From Candidatus Zixiibacteriota bacterium (GTDB lineage Bacteria; Zixibacteria; MSB-5A5; UBA10806): DNA of 45,062 nt. This document shows positions 20,984-45,062 of this stretch, piece by piece (the first letter of the stretch is position 1; the number at the start of each line of letters is the position of its first letter). The translations under genes were made by a program, and so were the position numbers. The stretch spans positions 875,499-920,560 of the forward strand of contig CP070742.1 in the NCBI GenBank assembly GCA_020348065.1, given 5' to 3'. The notes below the pieces were generated by a model. It was not told the origin of the DNA and searched no databases. It saw only the letters and a list, made by a program, of their open reading frames with translations.

Positions 20984-21328
20984 TTGCGCGAAAGAGCGGG
21001 GAAAAAAGAAAATATAAAAAAAGACGATTCGCAGAAGACTTGGTCACATGCTGGGGGGAAGCTCAGGGAGCTGGGTGCTAATACGCTCTCAGAAGAGGAA
21101 TTATTGGCAATTCTAATTTCGACTGGTATTCCGGGTAAATCAGCGATTCAGATTGCCCAGGAGGTAATTGAGCATTTTGGCTCTGTAGAAAATCTCGCGA
21201 ATCGGCCGCTTGAAAGCCTATTGGAAATAAAAGGATTATCAGATGTCAAAATTATTCGTATAGCCGCCGCGTTTGAATTTGCAAAAAGACTTTCTAAATC
21301 AAAGTCTGGACATGATGAAAGAAAGTAA
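20984..21328 (+). CDS. RadC-type helix-hairpin-helix protein lacking the JAMM domain
   Basis: The 114-residue product matches the N-terminal half of RadC (UPF0758): GGKLRELGANTLSEEELLAILISTGIPGKSAIQIAQEVIEHFGSVENLAN, then LLEIKGLSDVKIIRIAAAFEFAKRL. Full RadC is about 225 residues with a C-terminal JAMM metallo-domain, which is missing here; I find no remnant in the other frames downstream. TTG 20984 is chosen because AGGAG (20974-20978) would overlap the GTG at 20978. The end overlaps the large methylase-type gene, suggesting the two are co-translated. HhH units bind DNA, so it could assist the neighbouring enzyme; it may instead be a degraded radC. Confidence 0.82.
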   Translation: MRERAGKKENIKKDDSQKTWSHAGGKLRELGANTLSEEELLAILISTGIPGKSAIQIAQEVIEHFGSVENLANRPLESLLEIKGLSDVKIIRIAAAFEFAKRLSKSKSGHDERK

Positions 21329-24300: not shown

Positions 24301-24566
24301 CAATGCAGAGTCGCGGTTTATGGGGGCCTCGTGATATTTGCAAGAAAGTACTTGATCTTCCTATCCCCAAATATGATAAAAACATAAGCGCTCATGTTAA
24401 ACTTGTCGGTCTCAGTGCTGATTGCGCCAAGAAAGTTGCAGAATGGCAAAAGAATGATGGCCCAGATAAGATAAAAAGCATCGGCAAATTACGTGCTGTG
24501 GTTCGTCAATTATTGGATAAAGAATTAGGGCAAATTGACAAATTAGTTAAGGATCTATTAAAATAA
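21315..24566 (+). CDS. Large N6-adenine methylase with N-terminal nuclease-like region (type IIG-like)
   Basis: The 1083-residue protein has a central gamma-type N6-adenine methyltransferase: motif X as GEFYTPDWLA (G366 on), motif I as DPACGSGTFL (D393 on) and catalytic motif IV as NPPW (N592 on). The N-terminus (about 80-150) reads FGNAIIEFEAN ... AEEQLRRYVAILW and then CIATDGESF, resembling the restriction domains of single-chain type IIG/IIL enzymes, though the usual ExK is ExE (E100, E102). The C-terminus (QSRGLWGPRDICKKVLDLPIP) looks like the end of a target-recognition domain. It would methylate and possibly cut DNA at one specific site. ATG 21315 or 21312 may start it. Composition is AT-rich compared with neighbours. 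Confidence 0.88.
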   Translation: MKESKPEKKTKLKEKPTRIPDSRESIWDKAVTEYLQSIKKLNTESARSHRFAMLVHELLQLEPNFIEEYVSGIEKYVKTKNKDRLLRGEMDNLFGNAIIEFEANINKKRREAEEQLRRYVAILWSREKKNLRKPYICIATDGESFITYTPLIADSEAKEIAPEDVVLTILEESDWHRLKPYEIFYWLDRNFLRKEILPPTSESIVKDFGLKSHAFQLTSKSLTEIWNKVKDKGNYAVIYDGWDKYLRIVYGSKVAADDLFVSHTYLASLAKLMAWIRITGTSSLPDDKQILDMLKGELFKSQGIENFIEEDFFSWIAREETNEIGVAAMRWLFSLLQNYNLRELSEDVLKSLYQELVDPATRHNLGEFYTPDWLAHRMVIKMLKDNPEAKVLDPACGSGTFLYFSIRMKREQLGDKVSVLKKILDQVCGMDIHPLATIIAKTNYILALGDLLKKRKSAISIPVYLADTIKLPERWSADPESDYSFNIDSRQVFVPTKMLEDANMYDIAIELSKEYAYQRKSKNISKESFLVYLRAQSFGAQDEATITDAMYEIAKVFKEFIDIGRDTIWAYVIKNIYRPLFLRYRFDVIIGNPPWIAFRFLEPDYQAFLRRQIVDDYKLLIGRAELITQMEIATLFLIRCSDLYSKEGALIGFVLPRSIFSSDQHQRLREHSFRFKEAPDFHLSFKEVWDCEKVDPLFKVPACVIFAEKIKKKRIEKNIPIHSIVGKLNRKNASLNDSEQKLTIEKDKLSLHKIGKRIFWASGVAAKASKPSFYKERFANGATIYPRPFWFVKVKQSPIGVNPDMPLLETADRALEQAKDAYKGLSLSGTIESKFIYATLLSTDLLPFGHLDYRMVILPIMPVEDHYGLTSVKEAEGSGNIGLAKWLERVQKEWETRRGSKAEKMTALEWLNYRRKLVNQNPVTKYRVLYNVSGTYITACVVQNEKIIFSSDSQDISAGGFLADYKTYYCQLSSELEAYYLSSILNAPIINALIKPMQSRGLWGPRDICKKVLDLPIPKYDKNISAHVKLVGLSADCAKKVAEWQKNDGPDKIKSIGKLRAVVRQLLDKELGQIDKLVKDLLK

Positions 24567-30362: not shown

Positions 30363-31556
30363 ATGAATAGTCACAATACTAATTTTACCAAATCGGCGAT
30401 TTCTGACGCCGCCAATCAGGAAAGCGCCGAATCGGAGCAGCCGTTTTTCGAAAGCCATTCAAGACCTTCCTGGGTAGAAATTGATCTTTCGGCATTAAGA
30501 TACAATGTAGCCGCGGTAAAATCGAAAATCGATCCGGACACGAAATTTATGGCTGTCGTTAAGGCCAACGCCTATGGACACGGGGCGGTAAGGATTTCAG
30601 AGGCCGCCTGCGAAGAAGGTGTGGATTATCTGGGCGTGGCGCTCCTGGAGGAGGCCGATGAGTTGCGAAACGCGGGAATAAAAACGCCAGTTGTAATCCT
30701 TTACCCTGAGAATATTCCGCGCAGCGGTGAAGCTGTAAAAAAAGGATACATCATAACGGTATCGAGAATTGATGTGCTGAATTATTTGGGCGGTATTTTG
30801 AAAGATAGGCATATCCCTATAAGATATTTTCTAAAAATCAACTCCGGCATGAATCGTTACGGTATTGAAATTGAAAATGAATCCGATCTGTTTGATTCCG
30901 TTATCACAGGCGATGGTTATGAATTTATGGGATTTACGACCAACCTTGCCGGATCTAACGGCGGCGAAACATCTCTTTCCCGAAAACAGGAAGACATATT
31001 CTGCGAATTGATGGAATCCGCGAGGAAACGTTTTGGAAACGGCATTTACCTGTCGTATGAGTCATCGGGATCATTGTCGAACAAGAATAATTCATTCGGG
31101 TCGCTGGTCAGGATAGGTCATTTGCTATACGGGCCTTTAAATTCAGGTGAGAATCAATTAAAGCCGGTTATGACGGTTAAAAGCAGGATTGCCGAAATTC
31201 AGCATGTAAAAAAAGGCGCCGGCGTGGGATATGGATTTTCTTATATTGCCAAAAAGGATATGAAGATAGCGGTTATTCCCATGGGATATGCGGACGGATA
31301 TCCCTGGTCGTTGTCCAACAGGGGATTTGTATTGATAAGAGGCGAAATTGCCGGGGTTGTGGGTCGCGTTTGCATGGACGCCTTTATGGTAGATATTACG
31401 GATCTCGATGGCTGCCGGACAGGCGATGAAGTGGTTGTCATGGGTTCGATGGGGAAGAGAGCGATAACCGCTCAGGCGCTGGGAGAACTGGCGGGGTCTT
31501 TTTCATACGAGATGATGTCCCGGTGGGCCGTAAGACTTCCCAGAATTTATATATGA
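30363..31556 (+). CDS. alr: Alanine racemase
   Basis: A PLP enzyme that makes D-alanine for peptidoglycan. The 397-residue product has the PLP lysine K67 in AVVKANAYGHG, the substrate region KINSGMNRYGIE, the catalytic tyrosine Y290 in GVGYGFSY and the late GRVCMDAFMVDIT and RWAVRLPRIY. About 33 residues precede the usual start of the family (SWVEIDLSALRYN), with no signal peptide, so the true start could be further in. The gene opens the muropeptide operon and overlaps the next gene by 4 bases. The 212-base gap upstream (30151-30362) is AT-rich; I see no convincing promoter in it. Confidence 0.94.
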   Translation: MNSHNTNFTKSAISDAANQESAESEQPFFESHSRPSWVEIDLSALRYNVAAVKSKIDPDTKFMAVVKANAYGHGAVRISEAACEEGVDYLGVALLEEADELRNAGIKTPVVILYPENIPRSGEAVKKGYIITVSRIDVLNYLGGILKDRHIPIRYFLKINSGMNRYGIEIENESDLFDSVITGDGYEFMGFTTNLAGSNGGETSLSRKQEDIFCELMESARKRFGNGIYLSYESSGSLSNKNNSFGSLVRIGHLLYGPLNSGENQLKPVMTVKSRIAEIQHVKKGAGVGYGFSYIAKKDMKIAVIPMGYADGYPWSLSNRGFVLIRGEIAGVVGRVCMDAFMVDITDLDGCRTGDEVVVMGSMGKRAITAQALGELAGSFSYEMMSRWAVRLPRIYI

Positions 31557-32347
31557 TTTCGAGGATTAACATTAATATAGCGGATATCAGGGCGGAGCCT
31601 AAATTTCAGTCGGAAAGAACCAGCCAGGCGCTTTTCAATGAACGTGTTGAAATTCTGGATGAGAAGGACGGTTATCTCAGGGTAAAATCCCGGGACGGAT
31701 ATATCGGCTGGATTGCTGCCCAATTTACATCCGAATATAGAGAGTATAGGAGCGAAAAAACATATCTGGTAACATCTAATCTCACCCCCGGTTTTACCTA
31801 TCCGGATACTGATTCCGCGCGAATTGTATATCTTCCCTACGGGTGCAGCCTGTATGGCGAGGAGAAGGACGGTTTTCTTAGAATTTTATCCGAAAGATAC
31901 GGGGAAATATACGTGCGTTTGGGCGAAACATTGACCCTGACAAGTCCCCTTGAGCCTTTTCGGCCCAATCGGGATTTTATCAAAAGCGAGGCGGAGAAGT
32001 TTCTAAGCGCGCCCTATTTATGGGGCGGACGTTCTTTTTTCGGTATTGACTGCTCCGGTTTTATCCAGACCATAATGAGACGATTCGGATGGGATCTTCC
32101 GCGCGATACTAAAGACCAGATTAATTGCGGTGTGGAAATTGATCGCAAAAGCGTCCGAAACGGGGATCTTCTGTTTTTCCCGAGGCACGTGGCCCTGGCC
32201 GTCTCCAAACGGGAATTCATACATTCCAGTTCGAGCAACGGCGGCGTCGCCTCTAACAGTTTCGACCGCAAGAGTCCCGTATACAGTGAATATCTTGATA
32301 AGAATTTTATCGCCGCCCGAAGAGTTATATTCGCGGGAGGAGGCTAA
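31553..32347 (+). CDS. NlpC/P60 cysteine peptidase with SH3-like N-terminus (YkfC-like)
   Basis: The 264-residue protein has two SH3b-like segments (about 1-130) and a C-terminal NlpC/P60 domain. The catalytic residues are visible: Cys167 in GIDCSGFIQ, His212 in RHVALAV and His224 in FIHSSSSNG. This is the layout of Bacillus YkfC, which cuts gamma-D-Glu-L-diamino acid bonds of freed muropeptides. No signal peptide is present, so it likely works in the cytoplasm on imported peptides. It starts with an ATGA overlap on alr. The LD-carboxypeptidase and dipeptide epimerase downstream are the other two steps of the ykf pathway, which supports the role. Confidence 0.9.
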   Translation: MISRININIADIRAEPKFQSERTSQALFNERVEILDEKDGYLRVKSRDGYIGWIAAQFTSEYREYRSEKTYLVTSNLTPGFTYPDTDSARIVYLPYGCSLYGEEKDGFLRILSERYGEIYVRLGETLTLTSPLEPFRPNRDFIKSEAEKFLSAPYLWGGRSFFGIDCSGFIQTIMRRFGWDLPRDTKDQINCGVEIDRKSVRNGDLLFFPRHVALAVSKREFIHSSSSNGGVASNSFDRKSPVYSEYLDKNFIAARRVIFAGGG

Positions 32348-33466
32348 GTGAAATCAGGCAAAGCGGTTTTGATTGTGGTGATCTTTTGCGCCGCAATCGT
32401 TATATTGATGATAATCAAAGATCAAACTAATACCGACAGGCTTCTTCATGACGTTATATTCTTTGAGACAGCGGAAGATTGGGAGAAATGCAATCTCGAA
32501 AATTGTTTCATCAATTCTGATAGCGCCGCCGTGGTATTTGACGATAATGCCAGATCAAGTCTGGCAACTTTTCCTGTTGCTCCGGGATTTGAGTTCGATC
32601 AGGTGATATTATCCTGGAACATCCGATATTCGGAAAATCCGGGTCAATTTTATTTTAACCTGGAGGTTTCCGAAGACAGCATACGGTGGTACCATTTCGA
32701 CTATTTATCCTGGGGTGACAGCAGTTATAAAGAATCGGGGGGAGAAAAATCGATTGATGGGATCGGCGGGGTAGACGTCGACGTTCTCAAGCTTCAAAAA
32801 CCGATGAAATACGCGCGTGTTATGGCGGATTATTCGGGAAAAGATAATGACGAAAAAGTGTTTTTAAGGCGGCTTGCCTTATCATTTTCCAATGATAATC
32901 CAAGCTGGCGGGAATACAGGAAATATCATTCGAAAAACGACGACTTGGATTATGGTATGGTAAAACTATCGGTACCCTATATTACCCAGAGATCGCTTGA
33001 GGCCAATAAAGAAGGCGGGGCCTGCTCGCCAACTTCCGTAGGCATGGTATTAAATTATCATATTCCCGGAATCGACCCGGATGCTTTCGCCTGGACAACC
33101 TACGATTACGGAAACGAAATATTCGGCAACTGGCCTTATAATGTCCAGGCGGCGTTCGCGGCGGGATTGAGCAGAACCTGGGTGGCTCGACATTGCGGAT
33201 TCGATGAAATTTATGATGAAGTATCAAATGGTAAACCGGTTGTGATAAGTATTAAATATAATTATGACGAACTTCCGAATTCTCCCATACATTCTGCGGA
33301 AAATGGGCATCTGGTAGTGGTAATCGGTTTTGACGGACCGGACAGCGTTATTTGTAACGATCCCGCGGGTCACGGGGTCGATGACGGGATAATCAAATAT
33401 CCCAGAAAAGAGCTTGAGAGAGCCTGGGTCGAGCATACAGCGGTCGCCTACCATTTATGGCCATGA
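32348..33466 (+). CDS. Membrane-anchored C39-like cysteine peptidase
   Basis: The 372-residue protein has one N-terminal hydrophobic segment (about residues 5-22, AVLIVVIFCAAIVILMII), a beta-rich domain (about 30-185) and a C39_2-type papain-fold domain. Cys226 in GGACSPTSVGM, His321 in GHLVVVIGFDG and the following NDPAGHG are the expected catalytic positions. The domain is found in secreted peptidases acting on cell-wall or other peptides. GTG 32348 abuts the stop of the previous gene, and a strong GGAGG lies just before. Its place between cytoplasmic recycling enzymes is curious because it is itself outside the membrane; it may release peptides that the others process. Confidence 0.84.
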   Translation: MKSGKAVLIVVIFCAAIVILMIIKDQTNTDRLLHDVIFFETAEDWEKCNLENCFINSDSAAVVFDDNARSSLATFPVAPGFEFDQVILSWNIRYSENPGQFYFNLEVSEDSIRWYHFDYLSWGDSSYKESGGEKSIDGIGGVDVDVLKLQKPMKYARVMADYSGKDNDEKVFLRRLALSFSNDNPSWREYRKYHSKNDDLDYGMVKLSVPYITQRSLEANKEGGACSPTSVGMVLNYHIPGIDPDAFAWTTYDYGNEIFGNWPYNVQAAFAAGLSRTWVARHCGFDEIYDEVSNGKPVVISIKYNYDELPNSPIHSAENGHLVVVIGFDGPDSVICNDPAGHGVDDGIIKYPRKELERAWVEHTAVAYHLWP

Positions 33467-34401
33467 TAATAAAACCGCGAAGATTGCAAAAAGGATCAAG
33501 GATAGCTTTTATCGCCCCGGCCGGACCCCCTGATCCTGAACGACTGAAACGGGGAGAGCGGTTTTTTGAAAAAGCGGGCTATAAGGTAAAGATATATCCT
33601 CAGGCCAGGCGGAAACTCGGTTATCTGGCGGGGGATGACAGATCCCGGGCTGAGGCTTTGGTCGACGCATTCGCGGATGATACAATCGATGCCGTAATGT
33701 GCGTCCGGGGAGGATATGGCGCGTTGAGGCTTTTGCCTTTTATCGATTTTGAAATCATTAAGAAAAATCCGAAAATATTTATCGGTTATTCAGACATTAC
33801 CATACTGCTTCTTTCGATATTTAAAAAATGCGATCTGGTTACCTTCCACGGCCCCATGGCGGCCATAGAATTCGGAATGGCGGCAAAACCGTATACGAAT
33901 CATAGCTTTTTCAATATGCTAAGCGGGAATTTTTATAAGGCTGAAATCGATATCCCGCCGACTTATAAAATAAAAGTAATCAACGGCGGAATTGCGAAGG
34001 GTAGATTGGCAGGCGGCAATTTATGCCTGATGACGAAACTGATAGGAACCGGGCTTCTTCCTTCCTTTAAAAACAGACTGGTGTTTTTCGAGGATACCGA
34101 GGAGGAACCGTACCGGATCGACGGTTATCTTTCACAGCTTTTTCAAACTACGGATTTCGGTATGGCGGCAGGATACATTATAGGTGAATTCACCCGCACG
34201 AAACCCAAATTCGGCGGCATGGCGGGTTGGAACGTAAAGCAGGTTATAAAAGATTACTTTGCGGAAATCAACAAACCTGTAATTTACGGTTTTCCTTGCG
34301 GGCATGGAAAAGAAAAGGTTACCATACCGATCGGCGTCAAGGCTGTACTTGACGCCGACGGGAAGACCCTGATATTTAAAGAGCCGGGAGTTAAGCGATG
34401 A
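33463..34401 (+). CDS. ldcA: LD-carboxypeptidase (MEROPS S66)
   Basis: LdcA removes the terminal D-alanine from murein tetrapeptides during peptidoglycan recycling. The product has RIAFIAPAGPPDPERL, VRGGYGALRLLPFIDF, the nucleophile in GYSDIT (Ser110 from this start), FHGPMA and the later GGNLCLM and FEDTEEEPYRIDGYLSQL. Length is 312 residues, normal for the family, and no signal peptide is present, so it is cytoplasmic. ATG 33463 forms an ATGA overlap with the previous stop, as at the other junctions of this operon; ATG 33457 is two codons earlier and cannot be excluded. Its neighbours match the ykf-type recycling set. Confidence 0.93.
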   Translation: MIIKPRRLQKGSRIAFIAPAGPPDPERLKRGERFFEKAGYKVKIYPQARRKLGYLAGDDRSRAEALVDAFADDTIDAVMCVRGGYGALRLLPFIDFEIIKKNPKIFIGYSDITILLLSIFKKCDLVTFHGPMAAIEFGMAAKPYTNHSFFNMLSGNFYKAEIDIPPTYKIKVINGGIAKGRLAGGNLCLMTKLIGTGLLPSFKNRLVFFEDTEEEPYRIDGYLSQLFQTTDFGMAAGYIIGEFTRTKPKFGGMAGWNVKQVIKDYFAEINKPVIYGFPCGHGKEKVTIPIGVKAVLDADGKTLIFKEPGVKR

Positions 34402-35396
34402 AGATAAAGACCGAGGAATACGATATTCACCTTATTAATACGTTCAGGACCACGCATGGCGCCAGGGACGTTATGCAGATCTTGATAGTCAATATCGATG
34501 AGGGATTGGGCGAAGCCTCGCCGGTGCACTATTACGGCGAGGATTTGAACACCGTGAGAAATTTTATCAATAAGGCGGCGGGGAAAATTGATATTGATCC
34601 TTTTCAATTGGAAAAGCTGTCTTTTGATCTCGAGAAGGTGGGTGCATTCAACTACAGCGCCAAGGCGGCCATAGATATGGCAATGCATGACCTGACGGCG
34701 AAAAAATTGGGAATTCCGTTGTATAAATTCTTCGGCATAACTCCCAGGACCGATCTGGCGACCTCGTTCACCATTTCGATTTCCGATCCGGATACCATGA
34801 AAAAGCAAACGGAGAAAAACAAGGGGTATCATGTATATAAGGTGAAAGTGGGAGTTCCCGGCGATATCGAGATGATTGAAGCGGTGAGAGACGCGACCGA
34901 CGCGAAAATAAGAGTTGACGCCAATGAGGGATGGAATGTCAAGGAAGCGATATCGAAAATAAGGAAACTCGAAAAACTCGACGTTGAATTTATAGAACAA
35001 CCCCTGCACCGTGATGATTTTGACGGGTTCAGGATATTACGCTCGAAGACGGAGCTGCCGATAATTGTAGATGAAGGCGTTTTCAGATCGACCGATATTC
35101 CCAAATATGTCGGTCTGGCCGACGGGATAAATATCAAGCTTTCGAAATCTGGGGGGGTGCGCGAGGGCATGAAGATGATATCGGTTGCGCGGGCGCATAA
35201 AATGAAGGTTATGATCGGATGCATGGTGGAGACCTCGGTGGGAATCACCGCCGCGGCCCAGATAGCGTCCCTTGCTGATTATGCCGATCTCGACGGCAAC
35301 ATTTTGATTTCGGATGACCCCTTTAAGGGTGTTGAAATTGTGAACGGTTATATAAAGCTGCCTGACGGGCCCGGCCTCGGCGTCGTAAAAAGATGA
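34398..35396 (+). CDS. L-Ala-D/L-Glu epimerase, enolase superfamily
   Basis: The 332-residue protein has the muconate-lactonising subgroup pattern: KxK in YKVKVG (K148, K150), the metal ligands in RVDANEGW, EQPL and IVDEGV, and the opposite lysine K247 in NIKLSKSGG. The end reads DLDGNILISDDPF, a DxD type seen in dipeptide epimerases. These convert L-Ala-D-Glu from murein to L-Ala-L-Glu so that it can be digested. Related enzymes act on other dipeptides, but its position between ldcA and an amidase favours the murein role. It overlaps both neighbours by 4 bases (ATGA). Confidence 0.92.
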   Translation: MKIKTEEYDIHLINTFRTTHGARDVMQILIVNIDEGLGEASPVHYYGEDLNTVRNFINKAAGKIDIDPFQLEKLSFDLEKVGAFNYSAKAAIDMAMHDLTAKKLGIPLYKFFGITPRTDLATSFTISISDPDTMKKQTEKNKGYHVYKVKVGVPGDIEMIEAVRDATDAKIRVDANEGWNVKEAISKIRKLEKLDVEFIEQPLHRDDFDGFRILRSKTELPIIVDEGVFRSTDIPKYVGLADGINIKLSKSGGVREGMKMISVARAHKMKVMIGCMVETSVGITAAAQIASLADYADLDGNILISDDPFKGVEIVNGYIKLPDGPGLGVVKR

Positions 35397-37204
35397 TAAG
35401 ATACAAGATTGTATTAATCATTCTTTTATTAATATATTCTGTTCCGTCCGCGGAAATCGATTTAAATGTTATATATCCGCGTTTCGACCAGCAGTTGCCC
35501 GCCGTTGATTCGACCTTTATTTTTGGTAATGTTACGCCGGGAACCGAGATAATTATAAACGGAAGCGCCGTGGAGGTTCATGAAGACGGCGGCTGGCTGG
35601 GATTCTTGCCTGTTCAACCAGGGCAATTTCAATTCAATATTATAGCGTTTGGGAAAACGGATACGGCCATGATTGCATGGCCTGTACAGGTGGGTCCCGT
35701 CGAGTTGATAGATATGGGACTCAGGCCGGTAATTCCGAACACGCCCGACCCCGATTCGGATATCGTTTACTCGGTGGGTGATGTTTTTCAATTTTCATTC
35801 AGGTCTCAGGCCGGAGGAATCGGGTGGTTTAAAATAGGCGATTCCGATTCGGTCGCGATGTACGAGGTACGTAAGGACGAATATCAAATGCCGATAAGCG
35901 TTTTCGGGGATGTTAGCGCAGGTATTAATCCTCAATTGGATATGGTCACCTATGCGGGTTATAAGCGTCTGGATGATAAAGATATCGGTAACCACGAGGT
36001 GGTATATTGGTTCAATCCGGCTGGCAAATCCTTAATATATTCGCAAAACATAGCACCTCGATCGACGGGCAATATACTGACCGTAATGCCGGAGTTTCCG
36101 CCCGTAATCGGAAAATTGTCGGGTAAATCTCATATTATTCGCACCGGAGTAAGAAAAGGATATAAGCTTTTATATCTGCCGGCCGGCATCAGGGTACATA
36201 TAACCGGAATGGAAAGCGATTTCTACAAACTGCGTTTGGGCGAGGGCATTTCCGGTTACACCAACATAGACAGCGTCGCCATATTGCCCCAGGGGACTGA
36301 AGTACCATCAGGCAGGGTCTCGTATATCACAATTAATGAAACGGATAGATATATTGAAATATCCTGTAATACCGGGAATAAATTGCCATATGAAATAACC
36401 GAATCATCAGCCGGGCTACTTATGGATATTGATATATTCGGAGTTGTCGGAGACGTTGACTGGATCAGATATAACACCTCGAGCGGACTGGTAAAAATCG
36501 TCAGATGGTCGCAGCCCCGGGATGATATTTTTAGAATTGCGGTCGAACTGACCAAGAATATCATGGGAGGATATAAAGCGTTCTATTTTGATAACGATTT
36601 TATTTTCAGGATTAAGAAAAATCCGAAATTAAGACGCTGGCCGTACAAACCTTTTAGTGGAGTAAAAATCGCCATCGATCCCGGACATTCGCATGACAGC
36701 GGAGCTATCGGACCGACGGGCTTGAAAGAAAAGGACGCCAATCTCTGGATCGCGCATGAGCTTCGAGAAACGCTTCTGGAAAACGGCGCCGAAGTTATCA
36801 TGACACGATACGGGCATGAGCATATTCCGTTATATGACCGTCCAAAAATCGCGTGCAAATGGGATACCGATATTCTTGTATCGATTCATAATAACGCTCT
36901 GCCCGACGGTATAAATCCGTTTGAGAATAACGGGGTCTCGGTTTACTACTATCATCCACACTCGAAGCCGTTGGCGGAGGCGATTCATACGCGTATGGTT
37001 AAAAAGACGGGATTGCCGGACCACGGGCTTTATTACGGTAACCTGGTGCTGACCAGGCCGCCGGAGCTTCCCGCGGTTCTGGTAGAATGCGCCTTTATGA
37101 TGATTCCCGAGCAGGAAGCCAGGCTGAAGACCGACAGCTACCAGAGAAAATGCGCCAAAGCGATTATGGAAGGCATCAAAGATTATTTGAAGCTAAGCAG
37201 GTAG
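35393..37204 (+). CDS. N-acetylmuramoyl-L-alanine amidase (Amidase_3) with long N-terminal region
   Basis: The 603-residue protein has a signal peptide (about 1-20, ending YSVPSA). The C-terminal 190 residues are a zinc amidase: IAIDPGHSHDSGAIG, LKEKDANLWIAHELRETL, SIHNNALPD, and VECAFMMIPEQEARL with the catalytic Glu. The N-terminal 400 residues include an Ig-like start (about 22-105), an SH3-like segment near 240-300 and AMIN-like strands (about 310-405). It would cut the bond between muramic acid and the stem peptide in the periplasm. It is the last gene of the muropeptide operon. The convergent ABC transporter genes end only 4 bases beyond its stop, with no visible terminator between. Confidence 0.93.
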   Translation: MIRYKIVLIILLLIYSVPSAEIDLNVIYPRFDQQLPAVDSTFIFGNVTPGTEIIINGSAVEVHEDGGWLGFLPVQPGQFQFNIIAFGKTDTAMIAWPVQVGPVELIDMGLRPVIPNTPDPDSDIVYSVGDVFQFSFRSQAGGIGWFKIGDSDSVAMYEVRKDEYQMPISVFGDVSAGINPQLDMVTYAGYKRLDDKDIGNHEVVYWFNPAGKSLIYSQNIAPRSTGNILTVMPEFPPVIGKLSGKSHIIRTGVRKGYKLLYLPAGIRVHITGMESDFYKLRLGEGISGYTNIDSVAILPQGTEVPSGRVSYITINETDRYIEISCNTGNKLPYEITESSAGLLMDIDIFGVVGDVDWIRYNTSSGLVKIVRWSQPRDDIFRIAVELTKNIMGGYKAFYFDNDFIFRIKKNPKLRRWPYKPFSGVKIAIDPGHSHDSGAIGPTGLKEKDANLWIAHELRETLLENGAEVIMTRYGHEHIPLYDRPKIACKWDTDILVSIHNNALPDGINPFENNGVSVYYYHPHSKPLAEAIHTRMVKKTGLPDHGLYYGNLVLTRPPELPAVLVECAFMMIPEQEARLKTDSYQRKCAKAIMEGIKDYLKLSR

Positions 37205-37208
37205 CATT

Positions 37209-38021
37209 TTACTGTTTTAAAGCCCCGGCGGTAATACCCTCGGTTATCCGTTTTTGAAAAATTAAAAAGAATATAATAACCGGCAGCGCGGCTACTGTCG
37301 AACCGGCCATGGATACCGGCCAGTCGCTGGAACGGGGATCCTGCATCAACGCCAGCCCCACCGGCAGGGTATACATCTTGCTGGAATTGGTGAGGATTTT
37401 GGGGAATAGAAATGAGTTCCAGGTGGTCAGGAAAATCTGGACCGAAAGCACCGCCAGCGCCGGTTTGCATAAAGGAAGGACTATTTTGAAAAATATCGAT
37501 ATCTCGCCGGCCCCGTCCACCCGGGCGGCGTCCTCCAGGTCGGTCGGCAATCCGTCGATATACTGCTTCATCAAAAATACGCCAAGCGGCGCCACCAGCC
37601 AGGGGACTATCAGTGCCAGGTAGGTATCGAACCAGCCGAATTTGAGCATCATCTGGAAAATGGGGAGTATGAGCACGTGAACCGGAACCATTAGCATCGC
37701 TACCGCCGATAGAAATATGGGCCAGGTTATTCTAATGTTTCCGCGTGATAACCCGTACCCTACCATGGCGCAGAAAACGATATTACCCGCTGTAACGGCC
37801 AGGGCCACAAAGGCGGAATTGAAAAAATAAGTCCCGAAATTGTTTGATTTGAATACTACCGCATAGTTCTTTAAAGTCAAACCGAAATTTCGCAGGCTCA
37901 GTGAGAAACTGCCCGGCTCCTGAAAACTTAAGAGGATCATATATATCATAGGGAAAATCATGATAAAAAGCACAATTGATAGGAATGCCGGAACCATCCA
38001 TAACATAAGCGCTTTTTTCAT
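37209..38021 (-). CDS. Sugar ABC transporter permease, MalG type (CUT1)
   Basis: The 270-residue inner-membrane protein has six hydrophobic segments and the cytoplasmic EAA loop as DLEDAARVDGAGEISIFFKIVLPLCKPALAV, which docks on the ATPase. It pairs with the permease upstream, which overlaps it by 4 bases. Such pairs import oligosaccharides or glycerol phosphates. It is the last gene of the operon; no ATPase gene is present before the convergent amidase, so the ATPase must be shared from elsewhere, as is common in CUT1 systems. Confidence 0.93.
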   Translation of the reverse strand: MKKALMLWMVPAFLSIVLFIMIFPMIYMILLSFQEPGSFSLSLRNFGLTLKNYAVVFKSNNFGTYFFNSAFVALAVTAGNIVFCAMVGYGLSRGNIRITWPIFLSAVAMLMVPVHVLILPIFQMMLKFGWFDTYLALIVPWLVAPLGVFLMKQYIDGLPTDLEDAARVDGAGEISIFFKIVLPLCKPALAVLSVQIFLTTWNSFLFPKILTNSSKMYTLPVGLALMQDPRSSDWPVSMAGSTVAALPVIIFFLIFQKRITEGITAGALKQ

Positions 38022-38884
38022 GCTGATTTCCTGACGTTGATCAGTTTGAATTGAAGCAGCGAAAATGTAAGAAGAATTATAAAGAGGATATAGGCCGCCG
38101 CCGAGGCGTACCCGATACTTCCCCGGCTGATTCCCCTCTCGAATATAAAGAATACGGCGGTGAGGGTGGAATTGAACGGCCGCCCCGAGGTCATTACGAA
38201 TATCTCCACGAAAATCTGAAACGACCTTATGGTATTGAGCACAATCACGAAGGCGAACGTCGATTTGAGTAAGGGGATGGTGATGCTCGCGCTTCTCCGG
38301 AAAAACCCGGCGCCGTCCCCCCGGGCGGCCTCGTAAAGCTCAATAGGAATCGATTTTATTCCGGCCAGAAAGATCAGAACATAATAGCCGATAGCGACCC
38401 AGACGTCCATGGCCATGATCGAAAGAAGCGCCGTCTTTTCCGACTGTAAAAAACCGTTTTCCGGTGGAGAGAGCCCCGCGATCTGACACAGGGAAAAAAG
38501 ATATCCGCCTCGTGAATACAGGTTGTAGAATATCAGCGCTATTACCACCATGGCTGTTATAGACGGTATAAAATAGGCGGCCTGGAATATTTTATGCCCG
38601 GGTATTTTCTCGGCGATAAGCAAAGCGAAAATCAGAGCGAGAACCGTTGTAACGGGAATAGTACCGAAGACAAAATAAAACGTGTTCTTCAAAGACGTCA
38701 AAAATACCGGGTCGGATAGTAGATTGGAATAATTGGTGAAGCCGATAAAATCACCGGACCCCTGAAGCAGCTTAAAATCGGTGAAGGACAGATAAAGCGA
38801 ATAACTTATGGGATACAGCCAGAAAACCAGCAGGTAAACAATCCAGGGAAGTGTGAAAAGCAGTATTTTGTGTTTAGTCCGCAT
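38018..38884 (-). CDS. Sugar ABC transporter permease, MalF/UgpA type (CUT1)
   Basis: A 288-residue membrane protein with about six segments, beginning FTLPWIVYLLVFWLYPISYSLYLSFTDF as in UgpA/LacF permeases. The EAA loop reads ELYEAARGDGAGFFRRSASITIPLLKST. It forms the other half of the membrane channel with the downstream permease. The start overlaps the end of the solute-binding gene by 11 bases and the end overlaps the next permease gene by 4, so the three are translated as a unit. Confidence 0.93.
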   Translation of the reverse strand: MRTKHKILLFTLPWIVYLLVFWLYPISYSLYLSFTDFKLLQGSGDFIGFTNYSNLLSDPVFLTSLKNTFYFVFGTIPVTTVLALIFALLIAEKIPGHKIFQAAYFIPSITAMVVIALIFYNLYSRGGYLFSLCQIAGLSPPENGFLQSEKTALLSIMAMDVWVAIGYYVLIFLAGIKSIPIELYEAARGDGAGFFRRSASITIPLLKSTFAFVIVLNTIRSFQIFVEIFVMTSGRPFNSTLTAVFFIFERGISRGSIGYASAAAYILFIILLTFSLLQFKLINVRKSA

Positions 38885-40064
38885 AGTCTTCCGATTTCAA
38901 TTTGGCGTCGATTGTCTTTGCCGCTCTGAGCAAAACCTCTTCCGCGGTACCGTGACCGTATATGGCGGCTTCGATGGCGTCTTCGATATCCTGTTCGATG
39001 TAGACCCACAGGGGGGTTGGCGGGGCGGACCGGGAATTTTCCAGCTGGAAGGCAAGTATTCGCTTCTGTGGGTCGGTTATCTCGAGGCCGGGATAGGGGG
39101 GGAATCCGAAACCGGCGGCGTCGCATAAAGCCTGCGAATTTTCTTTTTGGGTAAGAAATTTTGCAAGTTTTTTGGCCGTTTCGAGATTTTTCGATTTGGC
39201 GTTTACGGCTATATACTCTCCGCCGAAAAAGGAGATGCCTGTCCCGCCCGACGGATTCATGATCGGTACCAGCCTGTATTCAAAATTGACCTTTGAGCGT
39301 TTCAGTTTATTCAATAGCCAGCCGCCGGAAATTATAAATCCGAGTTTGCCGTCAATGAAATACTCCTCCAGCCTCCTCTGGCTTTCGATAGCGCCGCAGT
39401 CACAGATTTTGAGGTAGCATTCAAGCGCTTCTATCGCCTGTTCTGATCCCAGCTCACAGGTTTTGCCGTCAGGGCTCATGATATTACCGCCGTTACTCCA
39501 TAAAAACGGCAGATATTTCTTGTAGAGCCGATGTTTTTCGGCGGAATTGCACCCGAAACCGAAATAATCCTCCCCCAGATCGTCGATTTTTTCGCAGGCC
39601 TTCAGCAGATCATCCCGATTTTCCGGCACCTCTACACCGGCCTTGTCTAATAAATCGAGGTTGAAATAAAATATTCTCGATGCCAGCATCCAGGGCAAAG
39701 CATAGAGATCGCCCCGCCATTTTGCCGGTGCGAGGTAATTTTCCGGAAGATCGGAACGGAAATCAGCCAGAAGGCCCTCCGAAGCGAACTCCGCGATCCA
39801 GTCCGAGCCGAGTTCCATCACGTCGGGAGGATCATCGGCGGCGAACGATATCACCAGCTTGTCATGACCGTTGGCCCAAGTGAGATCGGTTATTTTCACC
39901 TTTACCCCGGGATTGCGTATCTCGAAATCTCTCACCATCTTCTCCACGACAGGTTTGGTGTTGACATCGGACCAGAACTGCCAGAAGCGAATCGTGCCCG
40001 TTTCGTTTTTTGAGCCCGAACAGCTCAGGCCCAAAACCAGGGAGATCAAACAAAAATACCGCAC
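38874..40064 (-). CDS. Extracellular solute-binding lipoprotein of a sugar ABC importer
   Basis: The 396-residue protein is of the family 1 solute-binding type: IRFWQFWSDVNTKPVVEKMVRDFEIRNPGVKVKI at the start, DVMELGSDWIAEFASEG, LYALPWMLASRIFYFNLDLLDKAG and GISFFGGEYIAVNAKSKN later. The short signal ends GLSC (Cys 15), a lipoprotein-like end though not a perfect lipobox. Substrate cannot be read. The start is a GTG at 40064 with no ribosome-binding sequence; a strong promoter places the transcript start at that base, so the mRNA may be leaderless. It heads the operon and is divergent from the membrane module at 40199. Confidence 0.93.
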   Translation of the reverse strand: MRYFCLISLVLGLSCSGSKNETGTIRFWQFWSDVNTKPVVEKMVRDFEIRNPGVKVKITDLTWANGHDKLVISFAADDPPDVMELGSDWIAEFASEGLLADFRSDLPENYLAPAKWRGDLYALPWMLASRIFYFNLDLLDKAGVEVPENRDDLLKACEKIDDLGEDYFGFGCNSAEKHRLYKKYLPFLWSNGGNIMSPDGKTCELGSEQAIEALECYLKICDCGAIESQRRLEEYFIDGKLGFIISGGWLLNKLKRSKVNFEYRLVPIMNPSGGTGISFFGGEYIAVNAKSKNLETAKKLAKFLTQKENSQALCDAAGFGFPPYPGLEITDPQKRILAFQLENSRSAPPTPLWVYIEQDIEDAIEAAIYGHGTAEEVLLRAAKTIDAKLKSEDYAD

Positions 40065-40070
40065 AGGAAG

Positions 40071-40100
40071 ATTTTATCTCAGTCGGGAGCTTTATGTCAA
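40071..40100 (-). promoter_or_regulatory. Promoter of the ABC importer operon
   Basis: On the minus strand, TTGACA (40100-40095), 18-base spacer, TAAAAT (40076-40071). The expected start is at about 40064, which is the first base of the GTG start codon. Confidence 0.7.
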
Positions 40101-40160
40101 GGACCAACAGGGGATTCAATACCTGTGTATACCGTTTTTATCTCATCAGGTTTGTAGGGC

Positions 40161-40189
40161 TTGACAGGCCGTCAAAATGCTTATAAAAT
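40161..40189 (+). promoter_or_regulatory. Promoter of the four-gene membrane module
   Basis: Perfect TTGACA (40161-40166), 17-base spacer, TAAAAT (40184-40189). The expected start near 40196 is only about three bases before ATG 40199. Confidence 0.75.
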
Positions 40190-40198
40190 TCTGCAGGT

Positions 40199-41329
40199 AT
40201 GAAGCGATTTTTTATCATATCGGCTTTGTTTGCTTTAATGCCTTTGCAGGTATTTGCCTTTGAATTATATATTTCCGATCAGCCCAACGATGACGGAACC
40301 AGGCTTACCGTGGAGTGGGATCCCTTGCCTCCCGATGATTTGCGGTCAATCGACCCGGAGATTTACAGCCTATTGAGATCCGAATCGCCTGATGGTGAAT
40401 TTACGTCAATCGATATCGTATCCCGGCTCGATCCGTCGCGGCGAAAAATCGACGAGAATCTTGCCACCGGGCGTAGCTATTATTATAAACTGGCATATTC
40501 CGACTCCACAATATCATGGGAATCAAATGTTGCCGGACCGGCAGCTCCCGAAGAGAACTGGTATAACAGATCCAGAACCAACGTGCTTATAGGCATATTA
40601 ATTACGGGCGCTTTCGTGGGAATATTCATTATACTTGGCAGGAAGGGCAAATCTCTTTATCTAAGGCCTATCGCCGGGCTTAACGCCATGGATGAGGCCA
40701 TCGGACGGGCCACCGAGATGGGCAAGCCTATCCTGTATTCCTCGGGGCGCGGCAAAATGGAGCGACCGGCGTCGATCGCCAGCATGAATATCCTGGGATC
40801 GGTGGCCGAAAAAGTGGCCTCCTACGGTACGCCTCTTATATTTCCCAATAACGACCCGGTGGTGACGGCTGTCGCCCAGGAGGTCGCCCGGGAGGGATAC
40901 ACCAAGGCCGGGCACGCCGATCTGTACAATCCCGATAATATATACTTTGTTACCGACAGCCAATTCGGCTACGCCGCGGCGGTGGACGGTATTATGATGA
41001 GGGAACGTCCCGCCACCAACCTGTTTTTCGGAACTTTCGAGGCAGAATCGCTTATCCTGGCCGAGACCGGAAATTCGATAGGGGCTATTCAGATAGCCGG
41101 CACTGACTCCTCCATCCAGATGGCCTTTTTTATTGTGGCCTGCGACTTCGTGCTTATCGGCGAAGAATTATTCGCGGCTTCAGGATATTTATCGGGAGAT
41201 CCGCAGGTGGTGGGCACCTTGAAGGGCTCGGATTACCTGAAGGTTATTATAATTATCATGATTTTATTCGGAGCCGTGGTCGGGCTTTTGAACCAGGAAT
41301 GGTTTGTAAACCTGTTTTTGACCGCGTGA
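40199..41329 (+). CDS. Membrane protein with FN3-like domain and DUF6754-like domain
   Basis: The 376-residue protein begins with a signal-like segment (about 1-21, PLQVFA), an FN3-like beta domain (about 23-118, with RLTVEWDPLPP and GRSYYYKLAYSD), a membrane helix (about 128-148), a 200-residue domain and a final hydrophobic segment (about 348-374). The large domain opens with GLNAMDEAIGRATEMGKPILY and continues GRGKMERPASIASMNILGSVAEKVASYGTPLIFP; I recall this as DUF6754, uncharacterised. If the signal is cleaved, the large domain is cytoplasmic. It is the first of four genes separated by single bases and has no conventional ribosome site, fitting a leaderless transcript. The function is unknown. 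Confidence 0.85.
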   Translation: MKRFFIISALFALMPLQVFAFELYISDQPNDDGTRLTVEWDPLPPDDLRSIDPEIYSLLRSESPDGEFTSIDIVSRLDPSRRKIDENLATGRSYYYKLAYSDSTISWESNVAGPAAPEENWYNRSRTNVLIGILITGAFVGIFIILGRKGKSLYLRPIAGLNAMDEAIGRATEMGKPILYSSGRGKMERPASIASMNILGSVAEKVASYGTPLIFPNNDPVVTAVAQEVAREGYTKAGHADLYNPDNIYFVTDSQFGYAAAVDGIMMRERPATNLFFGTFEAESLILAETGNSIGAIQIAGTDSSIQMAFFIVACDFVLIGEELFAASGYLSGDPQVVGTLKGSDYLKVIIIIMILFGAVVGLLNQEWFVNLFLTA

Positions 41330-41330
41330 T

Positions 41331-41948
41331 ATGAGAAGAACCTTTCCAATACTGGTCTGCTTTTCCTTCGGGATGACTATGCTTGTTCAGTTCTTCGTAC
41401 CGTCCAAGCTCTCCACCGACGCCTACAACGAAATTACCAACTGGGTTCAGATTATTTACGCCTTTGCGCTGATAGTGGGAGTCGTGGGGCTTCTTAAATA
41501 TCATTTTTCGAGAGTGTCGCGGAGGGAACGGGGATGGTTTTACAACCTGGTTACGGTGGCGTCCCTGATCGTCATGTCCCTGCTGGGATTTATCGGGGGA
41601 CGCGGCGACGGCGGGTCTTTCATGTGGGTTTTCAATAACATGATGGCGCCGATGCAGGCCACCGTTTTCTCCCTGCTGGCGTTTTTTGTCGCCTCCGCGG
41701 CCTACAGGGGATTTTTGGCCCGCAACCTGGAAGCCTTCTTGCTCTTATTCTCCGCGGTCATGATAATGTTCGGAATAGCCTCGGTGGGCAACGCCATTCC
41801 GCCCTTTTCGGATATCGCCAACTGGATTTTGATAAATCCCTCCATGACAGCCAGGAGAGGGATATTTATCGGGGTGGGCCTGGGGACAATCGCCGTTTCG
41901 CTGAGAGTTATTCTCGGGGTCGAAAGGACATACCTGGGGAAAGAATAA
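41331..41948 (+). CDS. Polytopic membrane protein, second gene of the module
   Basis: The 205-residue protein is almost entirely hydrophobic, with about six membrane segments, starting at residues 5-23 (FPILVCFSFGMTMLVQFFV). A charged cytoplasmic loop (HFSRVSRRERGW, about 62-73) and a Gly-rich stretch (GFIGGRGDGGSF) separate segments. I recognise no family. The gene begins one base after the first gene and ends one base before the third, so it is almost certainly part of one complex with them. It could be a channel or scaffold subunit; nothing in the sequence decides between them. Confidence 0.82.
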   Translation: MRRTFPILVCFSFGMTMLVQFFVPSKLSTDAYNEITNWVQIIYAFALIVGVVGLLKYHFSRVSRRERGWFYNLVTVASLIVMSLLGFIGGRGDGGSFMWVFNNMMAPMQATVFSLLAFFVASAAYRGFLARNLEAFLLLFSAVMIMFGIASVGNAIPPFSDIANWILINPSMTARRGIFIGVGLGTIAVSLRVILGVERTYLGKE

Positions 41949-41949
41949 T

Positions 41950-42768
41950 ATGAGTATCTGGGAAAAAGCCAAAACACTGGATCGCCGGATCATTTTCCTT
42001 TTCATGTTTTTAGGTGTGGGGCTGCCGCTTCTGGCCAAAATAGGTTTGCCCGTAAGCGTTACCGACGATGTTAGAAATGTCTACAATTATATTGAAAAGC
42101 TTGAGCCGGGAGATATCGTTCTGGTTTCCTACGATCACGATACCGGCACTCTTCCCGAAATGATTCCCATGTCCGACGCTATCCTGCGTCATCTCTTCAA
42201 GAAAGATATCCGCGTGGTGGGGATGGCCTTGAGAGCCGAGGGTAACGGCATCGGAAGGCAAAATATCAGACGAACATCTGCGGAATTTGATAAGACCGAG
42301 GGTACCGATTATGTTTTCCTCGGTTTCAGGCCGGAAATTACGGCCGCTATTCTGGGACTGGGCACATCTTTTGAAAAAGTATTTCCCAAAGATGATCGGG
42401 GAATCCCGGTCGGAGAGCTGCCTTTGATGAACGAGGTCAGTAATTACAACGATGTCAAACTGGTTATCTCCGTAACGGACGACGATACGCCCGTATACTG
42501 GGTTAATTACGCCAATGCCCGGTTTAAGGTAAAGGTCGTCGCCGGCCTTACAGCGGTTATGGCTACCACCTTTTTCCCCTTCATCGACTCCGGACAGATG
42601 GTAGGTATGGTGGCGGGTTTAAAAGGGGCGGCAGAATATGAGAAATTGATAAAGACACCGGGAAGGGCCGCCCGGGGTATGGACGCGCAGTCAATCGCCC
42701 ACCTGGTTATGATCGGATTCATAATAATCGGTAATGTCGCCTTTATTATGAGAAGAAGAGGTAAGTGA
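41950..42768 (+). CDS. Membrane-anchored protein with Rossmann-like domain, third gene of the module
   Basis: The 272-residue protein has an N-terminal membrane segment (about 14-32), a large soluble domain (about 33-195) and a C-terminal membrane segment (about 249-265), ending RRRGK. The soluble domain alternates strands and helices (GDIVLVSYDHDTGTLPEMIPMSDAILRHLFKKDIRVVGMAL, YVFLGFRPEITAAILGLG, VKLVISVTDDDTPVYWVNYA), which suggests a Rossmann-like fold. I recognise no family. A stretch GLKGAAEYEKLI before the last helix resembles LKGSDYLKVI at the same place in the first protein of the module. Hydrophobic residues near 198-215 may be a third membrane segment. Confidence 0.82.
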   Translation: MSIWEKAKTLDRRIIFLFMFLGVGLPLLAKIGLPVSVTDDVRNVYNYIEKLEPGDIVLVSYDHDTGTLPEMIPMSDAILRHLFKKDIRVVGMALRAEGNGIGRQNIRRTSAEFDKTEGTDYVFLGFRPEITAAILGLGTSFEKVFPKDDRGIPVGELPLMNEVSNYNDVKLVISVTDDDTPVYWVNYANARFKVKVVAGLTAVMATTFFPFIDSGQMVGMVAGLKGAAEYEKLIKTPGRAARGMDAQSIAHLVMIGFIIIGNVAFIMRRRGK

Positions 42769-42769
42769 T

Positions 42770-43468
42770 TTGAATTCCGGACTGATATGCGTGTCGCTGT
42801 TCACCGCGGATGGTGCAGGTATCTGGATCGCATCTATTCTTACCCTGGCCATTTATTCCTTTCTCTATAAAGACAATCCCATCTACAGGTTCTCTGAGAG
42901 CCTTTTAATCGGAATATCGGTCGGATTTCTTCTGGTAACCACCTTTGATACCACCCTTTTACCGAAAGCTTTTGAACCGGTCGGCAAGGGCCTTTCGGTA
43001 ATGTTTGGAATCGGAGGGTTCGGCTCGATAATCTCGTTTATATGGCTGTTGATTCCGGTAGCCCTGGGGCTATTGATGTTCGCCAGGTTCGTTCCGAAGT
43101 ATGCCTGGATGTCGCGGGTTGCGTTGGCTCTTTATATCGGCTTCGGAGCAGGTGCTTCCATTCCAGCAAATATGCAATCTTATATATTAAGGCAGATTGA
43201 CGCAACTATAAGACCGTTTTTGCATATCGATTCGTTCTGGTCATTGATTAACGCCATCGTGATCCTGGCGGGATTGATATCGACATTGTTTTATTTCTTC
43301 TTTTCAAAGGAGCAAAAAGGAGCTTTTGGGAAGATAACGCGGCTGGGAACATTTTATCTTATGATATTTTTCGGAGCTACCTTCGGATATACGGTCATGG
43401 CGCGCATTTCACTGCTTATCGGCCGGTTGACATTTTTGCTTAAAGACTGGTTGGGATTGATTTCATAA
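42770..43468 (+). CDS. Polytopic membrane protein, fourth gene of the module
   Basis: A 232-residue, very hydrophobic protein with about seven membrane segments. A short polar loop KDNPIYRFSESLLIG near residue 34 and KEQKGAFGKITRLG near residue 182 are the main cytoplasmic loops. The start is TTG 42770, with GAGG at 42758-42761 eight bases upstream, and it lies one base after the previous stop. I do not recognise a family. With the second gene it would form the membrane core of the module. A transcription start for the following gene may lie just after it (TTGATT 43457-43462 with TATTAG 43481-43486). Confidence 0.82.
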   Translation: MNSGLICVSLFTADGAGIWIASILTLAIYSFLYKDNPIYRFSESLLIGISVGFLLVTTFDTTLLPKAFEPVGKGLSVMFGIGGFGSIISFIWLLIPVALGLLMFARFVPKYAWMSRVALALYIGFGAGASIPANMQSYILRQIDATIRPFLHIDSFWSLINAIVILAGLISTLFYFFFSKEQKGAFGKITRLGTFYLMIFFGATFGYTVMARISLLIGRLTFLLKDWLGLIS

Positions 43469-43517
43469 GTTCCGCGTTTTTATTAGATAATAAATTTCGA
43501 CATGACTGGAGTGGGTG

Positions 43518-45062
43518 ATGAAAAAGATAGCAGCAATAGTGTTAATAGCGGCGGCGTTTTTTTCCTGTTCAAAAGACGAGATGAGAAGCTGGCAGAGATA
43601 TAATTTACCTGAAGGATTCGCTGATTCGCATATTTTAAGTATCGATGTAAAAGGAGATTCGATATTAATCGGAACCTTCGGCAGGGGAGCGCTTTTCAGC
43701 GACAATAACGGTGGAAGCTGGGCTGTATTCGATACGGGCAAGGGACTGTCATGGAATTTTATTCTGGGTGGAGATTGGGACAAAAAGTATATCATCCTCG
43801 CTACGCTGGGCGACGGACTCAATATCTCCACCGATTACGGAAAAAGCTGGGAACGATTTGGATATAATTTCTTTGGTATCGAATATCTCTATACGGTGAA
43901 TGCCAAGATAATAAAAGGGAAAAAATATGTTCCCACCGCCGACGGCCTGGTGATTTTTGAGAATATAAAAGATTGGAGCGCCCTGGATGAAAAAAGCGGG
44001 ATCGGATCTCAGTATATATACGATATGAAAATCAGGGGCGACACCATTGCACTGGGCACCTTGTATGGTTTGTCATTTTCCGGTGATGGCGGCGCCACCT
44101 GGGCAAATTTCTCTCCCAACGACAAATATTCCTCGGAACATATTCCCGACTGTAAGGTCAGGGCCGTGGAATTCGCCGGCGACAGAATTTTCGCGGGCTG
44201 CGATGATGGTTTGTATTTTTCAAAAAACGGGGGAGGCGCCTGGGAAAAAGCCGGCGACGGTTTCCTCTCAAGCCCCTTTGTGCGAGATCTCTTGATTGAC
44301 GGTGAGCAAAATCTCTGGATCGCGACCTATAAGGAGATAGCGGCTTACAATTTGAAAATCAAGAGCTGGAAGGTATATAATTATGAAAAAGGACTGCCTC
44401 GGGGCGGGGTGAATTGTGTCGGTATAACAGTAGAAGGAGAGGTACTGGCGGGCACCAACACCGGATTGTTCAGATTGGTTTCGGACGCTCCGGAGCTTAT
44501 AGATGAAGGACATGTTGAAATCGAATTTTCAGAAACCGAGGTTCCCAAACATCAATGGATGTTGCGCCCGGTCCGTCCCCATGATCAGAATCTGAAAGAT
44601 CAAACTTATTTATACGGTTCCACCATGGGGGGAAATTTCAGGCAGCACCAGGGTAATGAATACAACGCCCCCGAAGGAACGCCGCTTCTGGCGGTCGATG
44701 ACGGTACTATTGTGTTTATCGACAGAGAAATAGGCCATTCGGTTTTAAAATGCGATCGCAGAGAGGGGGATTTTTACGTCTACGCCCATTACCATCATCA
44801 GCACGATATTTTCAAGAATATTGGAGATGCTGTTAAAAGGGGAGATATTATTGGATCAATTGGCAAAAAGGGTAATGTGACCAACGAGCATCTTCATTTT
44901 GAGGTATCCCTCTCCGACCTGGATGATTCAAACCAGGAAAGTCATGCCCGCAATCCCGAATTGTGGGTTGAGCCGCTTCCCGGTACAGGCACAATTGTCG
45001 GCAAGGCGGTGGATGAAACCGGGGCGTCTGTTCCCGGAGTAAGGATTTACGGGGTCACCAAA
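43518..45062 (+). CDS. Propeller-M23 peptidase lipoprotein (cut by window end)
   Basis: The open frame from ATG 43518 runs 515 residues to the window edge without a stop. A short signal ends FFSC (Cys 18), lipoprotein-like. Residues 20-330 form a beta-propeller of repeated units (ILIGTFGRGALFSDNNGGSW, ILATLGDGLNISTDYGKSW, IFAGCDDGLYFSKNGGGAW), like two-component-regulator or YCF48-type propellers. Residues about 360-480 are an M23 endopeptidase domain with H377 and the later HLHFEV (H458, H460); the usual Asp of HxxxD is Glu381. A carboxypeptidase-regulatory-like domain begins at the end (GTIVGKAVDETGASVPGV). It probably cleaves peptidoglycan cross-links in the periplasm. It may or may not belong to the module upstream. 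Confidence 0.88.
   Translation, partial: MKKIAAIVLIAAAFFSCSKDEMRSWQRYNLPEGFADSHILSIDVKGDSILIGTFGRGALFSDNNGGSWAVFDTGKGLSWNFILGGDWDKKYIILATLGDGLNISTDYGKSWERFGYNFFGIEYLYTVNAKIIKGKKYVPTADGLVIFENIKDWSALDEKSGIGSQYIYDMKIRGDTIALGTLYGLSFSGDGGATWANFSPNDKYSSEHIPDCKVRAVEFAGDRIFAGCDDGLYFSKNGGGAWEKAGDGFLSSPFVRDLLIDGEQNLWIATYKEIAAYNLKIKSWKVYNYEKGLPRGGVNCVGITVEGEVLAGTNTGLFRLVSDAPELIDEGHVEIEFSETEVPKHQWMLRPVRPHDQNLKDQTYLYGSTMGGNFRQHQGNEYNAPEGTPLLAVDDGTIVFIDREIGHSVLKCDRREGDFYVYAHYHHQHDIFKNIGDAVKRGDIIGSIGKKGNVTNEHLHFEVSLSDLDDSNQESHARNPELWVEPLPGTGTIVGKAVDETGASVPGVRIYGVTK

Follow-up and report, generated by a model that had tools for sequence, protein, structure and literature searches.

Four adjacent genes, here called A, B, C and D (positions 40199-43468 of the window, the whole 45,062-nucleotide stretch of Zixibacteria DNA that was analysed), recur in the same order in distant bacterial phyla, and comparison of their sequences strongly supports that they are one functional unit. 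We suggest a model, to which we give an even chance, whereby ABCD is the inner-membrane complex, with about five paralogues per genome, of an undescribed envelope system that would be run by two shared proteins, M and E. The initial annotation missed that the same genome holds five copies of ABCD, and that this one belongs to a larger system with M and E elsewhere; the operon in the window is one satellite copy of that system.

Organisation and conservation of the ABCD operon

Genes A (40199-41329, 376 amino acids), B (41331-41948, 205 amino acids), C (41950-42768, 272 amino acids) and D (42770-43468, 232 amino acids, TTG start) all lie on the plus strand, and their ORF coordinates bear out the initial annotation of four genes separated from each other by exactly one base. 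The start of D is uncertain; relatives often begin nearer residue 8-15, where an in-frame GTG occurs. The near-consensus promoter that had been proposed for the operon is also confirmed: TTGACA-17-TAAAAT (40161-40189, plus strand) agrees with the consensus at 11 of 12 positions, and the ATG of gene A starts 9 bases past the end of the -10 box. Because three relatives keep the same arrangement, with the start codon about 9 bases past the -10 box (L013, L014 and L015, the last by eye), the ABCD transcript is probably leaderless. A second, divergent promoter on the minus strand (40071-40100, 11/12 matches) serves a gene for a solute-binding protein. In both divergent promoters the -10 box lies 6-9 bases before the respective start codon, and this organism may often transcribe its genes without a leader.

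Scanning bacterial genomes with A yielded 31 loci in at least ten little-studied phyla, comprising 23 complete ABCD units, five units cut by a contig end and three A genes without B-D (L017, L020 and L043). Leaving aside the five truncated loci, the A-B-C-D order is thus complete in 23 of 26, two of which (L027 and L037) have C and D 1.4-1.5 kb apart. The pairwise divergences of A, B, C and D correlate across 49 operons (r = 0.66-0.81), a correlation to which the shared ancestry of the genomes contributes. Together, the conserved order over so many phyla and the correlated divergences strongly support the single functional unit that had been postulated from the sequence of this one locus. The single-base spacing, by contrast, had been read as a sign of fixed stoichiometry, and this part did not survive the comparison: the spacing of homologues varies between an overlap of about 70 bases and a gap of more than 100, so the tight packing is a local feature and uninformative on stoichiometry. 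That the four proteins form a complex is what we infer.

Five A and five C genes, in five complete ABCD operons, are found in the genome from which the window comes (3.74 Mb). More broadly, all 118 Zixibacteria genomes sampled carry DUF6754, the domain family of A, at a median of five copies, and none of 14 well-known control genomes does. In a tree of A, tandem copies fall into orthologous types common to several families, and the copy in the window belongs to a type represented in this tree only by L013-L016. The function of the system must be a basic one, given that all sampled genomes of a phylum keep it, typically with about five copies each.

Predicted architecture of the four proteins

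The initial annotation assigned the first gene to DUF6754, and Pfam agrees: A is a plain member of PF20539 (E=2.4e-106, 355 bits against a curated cut-off of 27 bits) over residues 118-372, encoded at 40550-41314 on the plus strand. The Pfam model covers only that single domain, whereas the protein contains more. From N- to C-terminus, A is predicted to consist of a signal/transmembrane (TM) segment, an extracytoplasmic fibronectin III (Fn3) domain (residues 22-111, 40262-40531, plus strand, from matches to Fn3 domains in the PDB), a TM helix, the alpha/beta DUF6754 domain and a C-terminal TM helix. Hydropathy across the family agrees in giving a signal plus two TM helices, and a cytoplasmic location of the alpha/beta domain is indicated by the charge balance over 36 homologues. 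This cytoplasmic domain is the most conserved part of A. The outer part differs among copies, being Fn3, tandem Fn3, a BamB-like beta-propeller (L026) or missing altogether (L046).

Family-wide hydropathy gives six TM helices for B, two for C and about six for D, in line with the two polytopic and two anchored proteins with soluble domains described initially. The earlier statement that none of the products has a nameable function likewise stands: B, C and D lack significant matches in Pfam, NCBIfam, PHROG and PADLOC and among PDB sequences, B and D are families without a name, and A matches only a DUF. B and D show no relation to each other, and neither matches MotA_ExbB (PF01618) at E<=1. 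In C, a six-stranded Rossmann-like alpha/beta domain lies between two TM helices, and the charged termini indicate that this soluble domain is probably extracytoplasmic.

AlphaFold models of A (pLDDT 85) and C (pLDDT 91.5) found only weak, generic Rossmann matches in the PDB with Foldseek (for A, 2iz5 with E=3e-4 and a TM score of 0.47 of the target; for C, 6y01/1kjn with E about 0.01). These weak matches include molybdenum-cofactor carrier/LOG-type folds, and in both proteins the conserved residues gather at the C-terminal tips of the predicted strands; neither showed a recognised cofactor motif. The two models also share the succession of helices and strands that lies between their two TM helices. 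A common origin of the two soluble domains was considered and dropped because their profiles align no better than shuffled-column controls, so the likeness is an observation on folds only.

The partner proteins M and E

Clustering of the genes around ABCD loci revealed two recurring partners, M and E. M is a MutL/GlmL-type actin-fold (ASKHA) ATPase of about 610 residues (PF13941, E about 1e-127). Its phosphate 1 and phosphate 2 motifs, DCGSTTTK and DIGGATTD, are strict or nearly so, and because the nucleotide-binding motifs are kept in 22 of 22 M sequences, it is expected to hydrolyse ATP. The conserved protein E has 375 residues and barrel-sandwich features. The genes are grouped in one cluster in Planctomycetota, Armatimonadota/Zipacnadia, Wallbacteria/UBP16 and Zixibacteria, arranged as p-s-M-E-(ABCD)1-3 or in a permuted order, in which p and s are small proteins without an assigned function.

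All 29 genomes that yielded A loci have M, and 28 of the 29 have E. E is found in 111 of 118 Zixibacteria, mostly as a single copy, and lies no more than 8 kb from an A in at least 39 of 101. In Planctomycetota, where only about a quarter of 119 genomes carry the system, 27 have both A and E, four have A only, two have E only and 86 have neither (p=3e-20; A-M, p=7e-17; E-M, p=5e-21), p-values that assume independent genomes, which these are not. M and E are also found joined: some genomes encode divergent M-E fusions of about 940 amino acids, in which a divergent MutL and a divergent E form a single protein (L057, 2267-5068; L058, 2965-5808). One M-E pair set against several ABCD copies per genome suggests that several membrane complexes share one module in the cytoplasm.

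In the genome of the window itself, M was missed by the profile search. Only its C-terminal 87 residues are present, directly after a 100-N scaffold gap (L072, 7600-7699), at about position 1,105,600 of the genome, on whose other side lies part of an acyl-CoA dehydrogenase gene. The genome is a single contig that contains 100-N gaps of this kind. A real loss of M was rejected on this ground; as the sister genome has a full M, the assembly gap explains the missing part. A phage or defence origin of the system was also discarded, since PHROG gave no match and A-E and M match no anti-phage defence model in PADLOC.

M shares the whole ASKHA ATPase domain, with phosphate motifs intact, with the GlmL/MutL family (PF13941; GlmL, NF040745). 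It differs in having an extra C-terminal region of about 110 residues, in scoring below the curated GlmL cut-offs (229.5 of 475 bits for NF040745; 168.9 of 204 bits for TIGR01319) and in adjoining E and ABCD instead of mutase subunits; among the neighbours scanned (E, ABCD, Tol-Pal, cation efflux, DJ-1 and others) there were no subunits of a B12-dependent mutase. Judged by these features, M is a separate subfamily from GlmL. DUF6754 and MutL are already known as families; the ABCD unit and its link to M and E appear to be new. DUF6754, PF20539 and PF13941 are not named in the open-licence papers searched, nor do these describe the four-gene unit or a link to M or E; a description elsewhere is possible.

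Envelope setting, proposed working and alternatives

The ABCD copy in the window sits in a peptidoglycan turnover locus (30363-45062). Before it lie genes for an alanine racemase, an NlpC/P60 peptidase and an LD-carboxypeptidase (S66), then an enolase-superfamily epimerase-like enzyme (MR_MLE), an amidase_3 and a divergent sugar ABC importer; an M23 peptidase follows downstream, and in L013 also a D-Ala-D-Ala carboxypeptidase. This context is common only to its own family of genomes. In five Zixibacteria loci (L060, L062, L065, L066 and L067), E (and M) are found directly upstream of tolQ-tolR-tolA-tolB-pal. From the predicted topology, the Tol-Pal genes downstream of M and E and the peptidoglycan setting of the window copy, we infer that ABCD acts in the envelope, in transport, assembly or a peptidoglycan-linked process, and the envelope role suggested initially is therefore plausible. 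Against such a theme, it rests on different neighbours in different lineages. Sugar import was rejected as the function of ABCD because the neighbouring importer runs divergently on the opposite strand and was seen with copies of the window type only. Between two ABCD operons of the window's own genome (L044, 8822-10692) are genes for CBS-domain, SPFH/Band 7 and NfeD-like proteins.

In our model, B and D would form the membrane core of the complex, while the exchangeable N-terminal domain of A (here Fn3) and the soluble domain of C would face outwards and meet a substrate or partner. The DUF6754 domain of A, its most conserved part and hence the natural docking site, would face the cytoplasm, where the single shared M-E module would dock and use ATP to drive or reset each ABCD complex. 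With its conserved order, five copies and near-constant ATP-using partner, ABCD looks like an undescribed cell-envelope machine. The broader proposal is that a GlmL-type ATPase together with E powers modular ABCD complexes with exchangeable outer domains, and that ATP-driven envelope machines of this new class probably occur in almost all Zixibacteria and in at least ten phyla; it is more tentative, and we put it somewhat short of an even chance. Modular transporters with a shared energiser exist, and the arrangement recalls one of them, the ECF transporters, in which one energising module per genome serves several membrane complexes with variable outer parts; unlike these, the system described here has neither an ABC ATPase nor a sequence relation to them, and transport is a proposal. 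It likewise shares an envelope setting with Tol-Pal and ExbBD-TonB, but B and D lack MotA/TolQ/ExbB homology and the power source, if any, would be an actin-fold ATPase. To our knowledge, no GlmL-type ATPase has been tied to a membrane complex before, and this would be the first case if true. Counting against the shared-ATPase model are the C-terminal scrap of M in the window's own genome and the A genes without B-D in three of 31 loci. Moreover, relatives of GlmL are known as mutase reactivases, not as membrane motors.

This last point leads to the chief rival, in which ABCD would be a membrane enzyme that carries a cofactor and M the chaperone that reactivates it. GlmL, EutA and similar ASKHA proteins are repair chaperones of B12 enzymes, GlmL serving glutamate mutase, and it is GlmL, with the ornithine-pathway Or-4 protein, that M resembles most, making it tempting to speculate that ABCD is a membrane-bound radical or cofactor-dependent enzyme in which the Rossmann-like domains of A and C bind the cofactor, with M and E as the repair chaperone. 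The clustering of conserved residues at strand ends and the weak resemblance of A and C to molybdenum-cofactor carriers would fit such an enzyme. However, the neighbours examined include no mutase or B12-binding gene beside M, M falls below the GlmL and glmL_fam cut-offs, A and C lack a recognised cofactor motif, and about five diverged copies per genome would be odd for one enzyme, so that we regard this explanation as unlikely.

Alternatively, ABCD might be a sensor or scaffold in which a ligand or the cell wall is bound by the variable outer domain of A, which then signals to the cytoplasmic DUF6754 domain, with M and E remodelling or localising the complex. The swapping of the outer domain among copies (Fn3, tandem Fn3, propeller or none), the different neighbours of divergent copies, including the NfeD-SPFH-CBS genes, and the actin-like fold of M, which invites comparison with membrane-organising FtsA or MreB-like proteins, are consistent with this idea; yet no kinase, cyclase or regulator is consistently linked, and the presence of two six-TM subunits whose membrane helices contain or adjoin conserved charged residues points to something more than a scaffold, and we consider a sensor or scaffold improbable. 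Far less credible is that the four genes are just a plain operon whose products are unrelated envelope proteins, carried along together but not joined in a complex. The lone A genes would agree with it; against it, the unit is almost always found whole, its order holds across at least ten phyla as well as in tandem duplicates, and the four proteins diverge in a correlated way.

Returning to the envelope machine, the order and co-occurrence of its eight protein families (A-E, M, s and p) make the question testable in Planctomycetota. Finally, we note that the window also encodes, at 21273-24566, a 1097-residue protein that by eye resembles a DNA methylase/restriction enzyme (motifs DPACGSGTF and NPPW).
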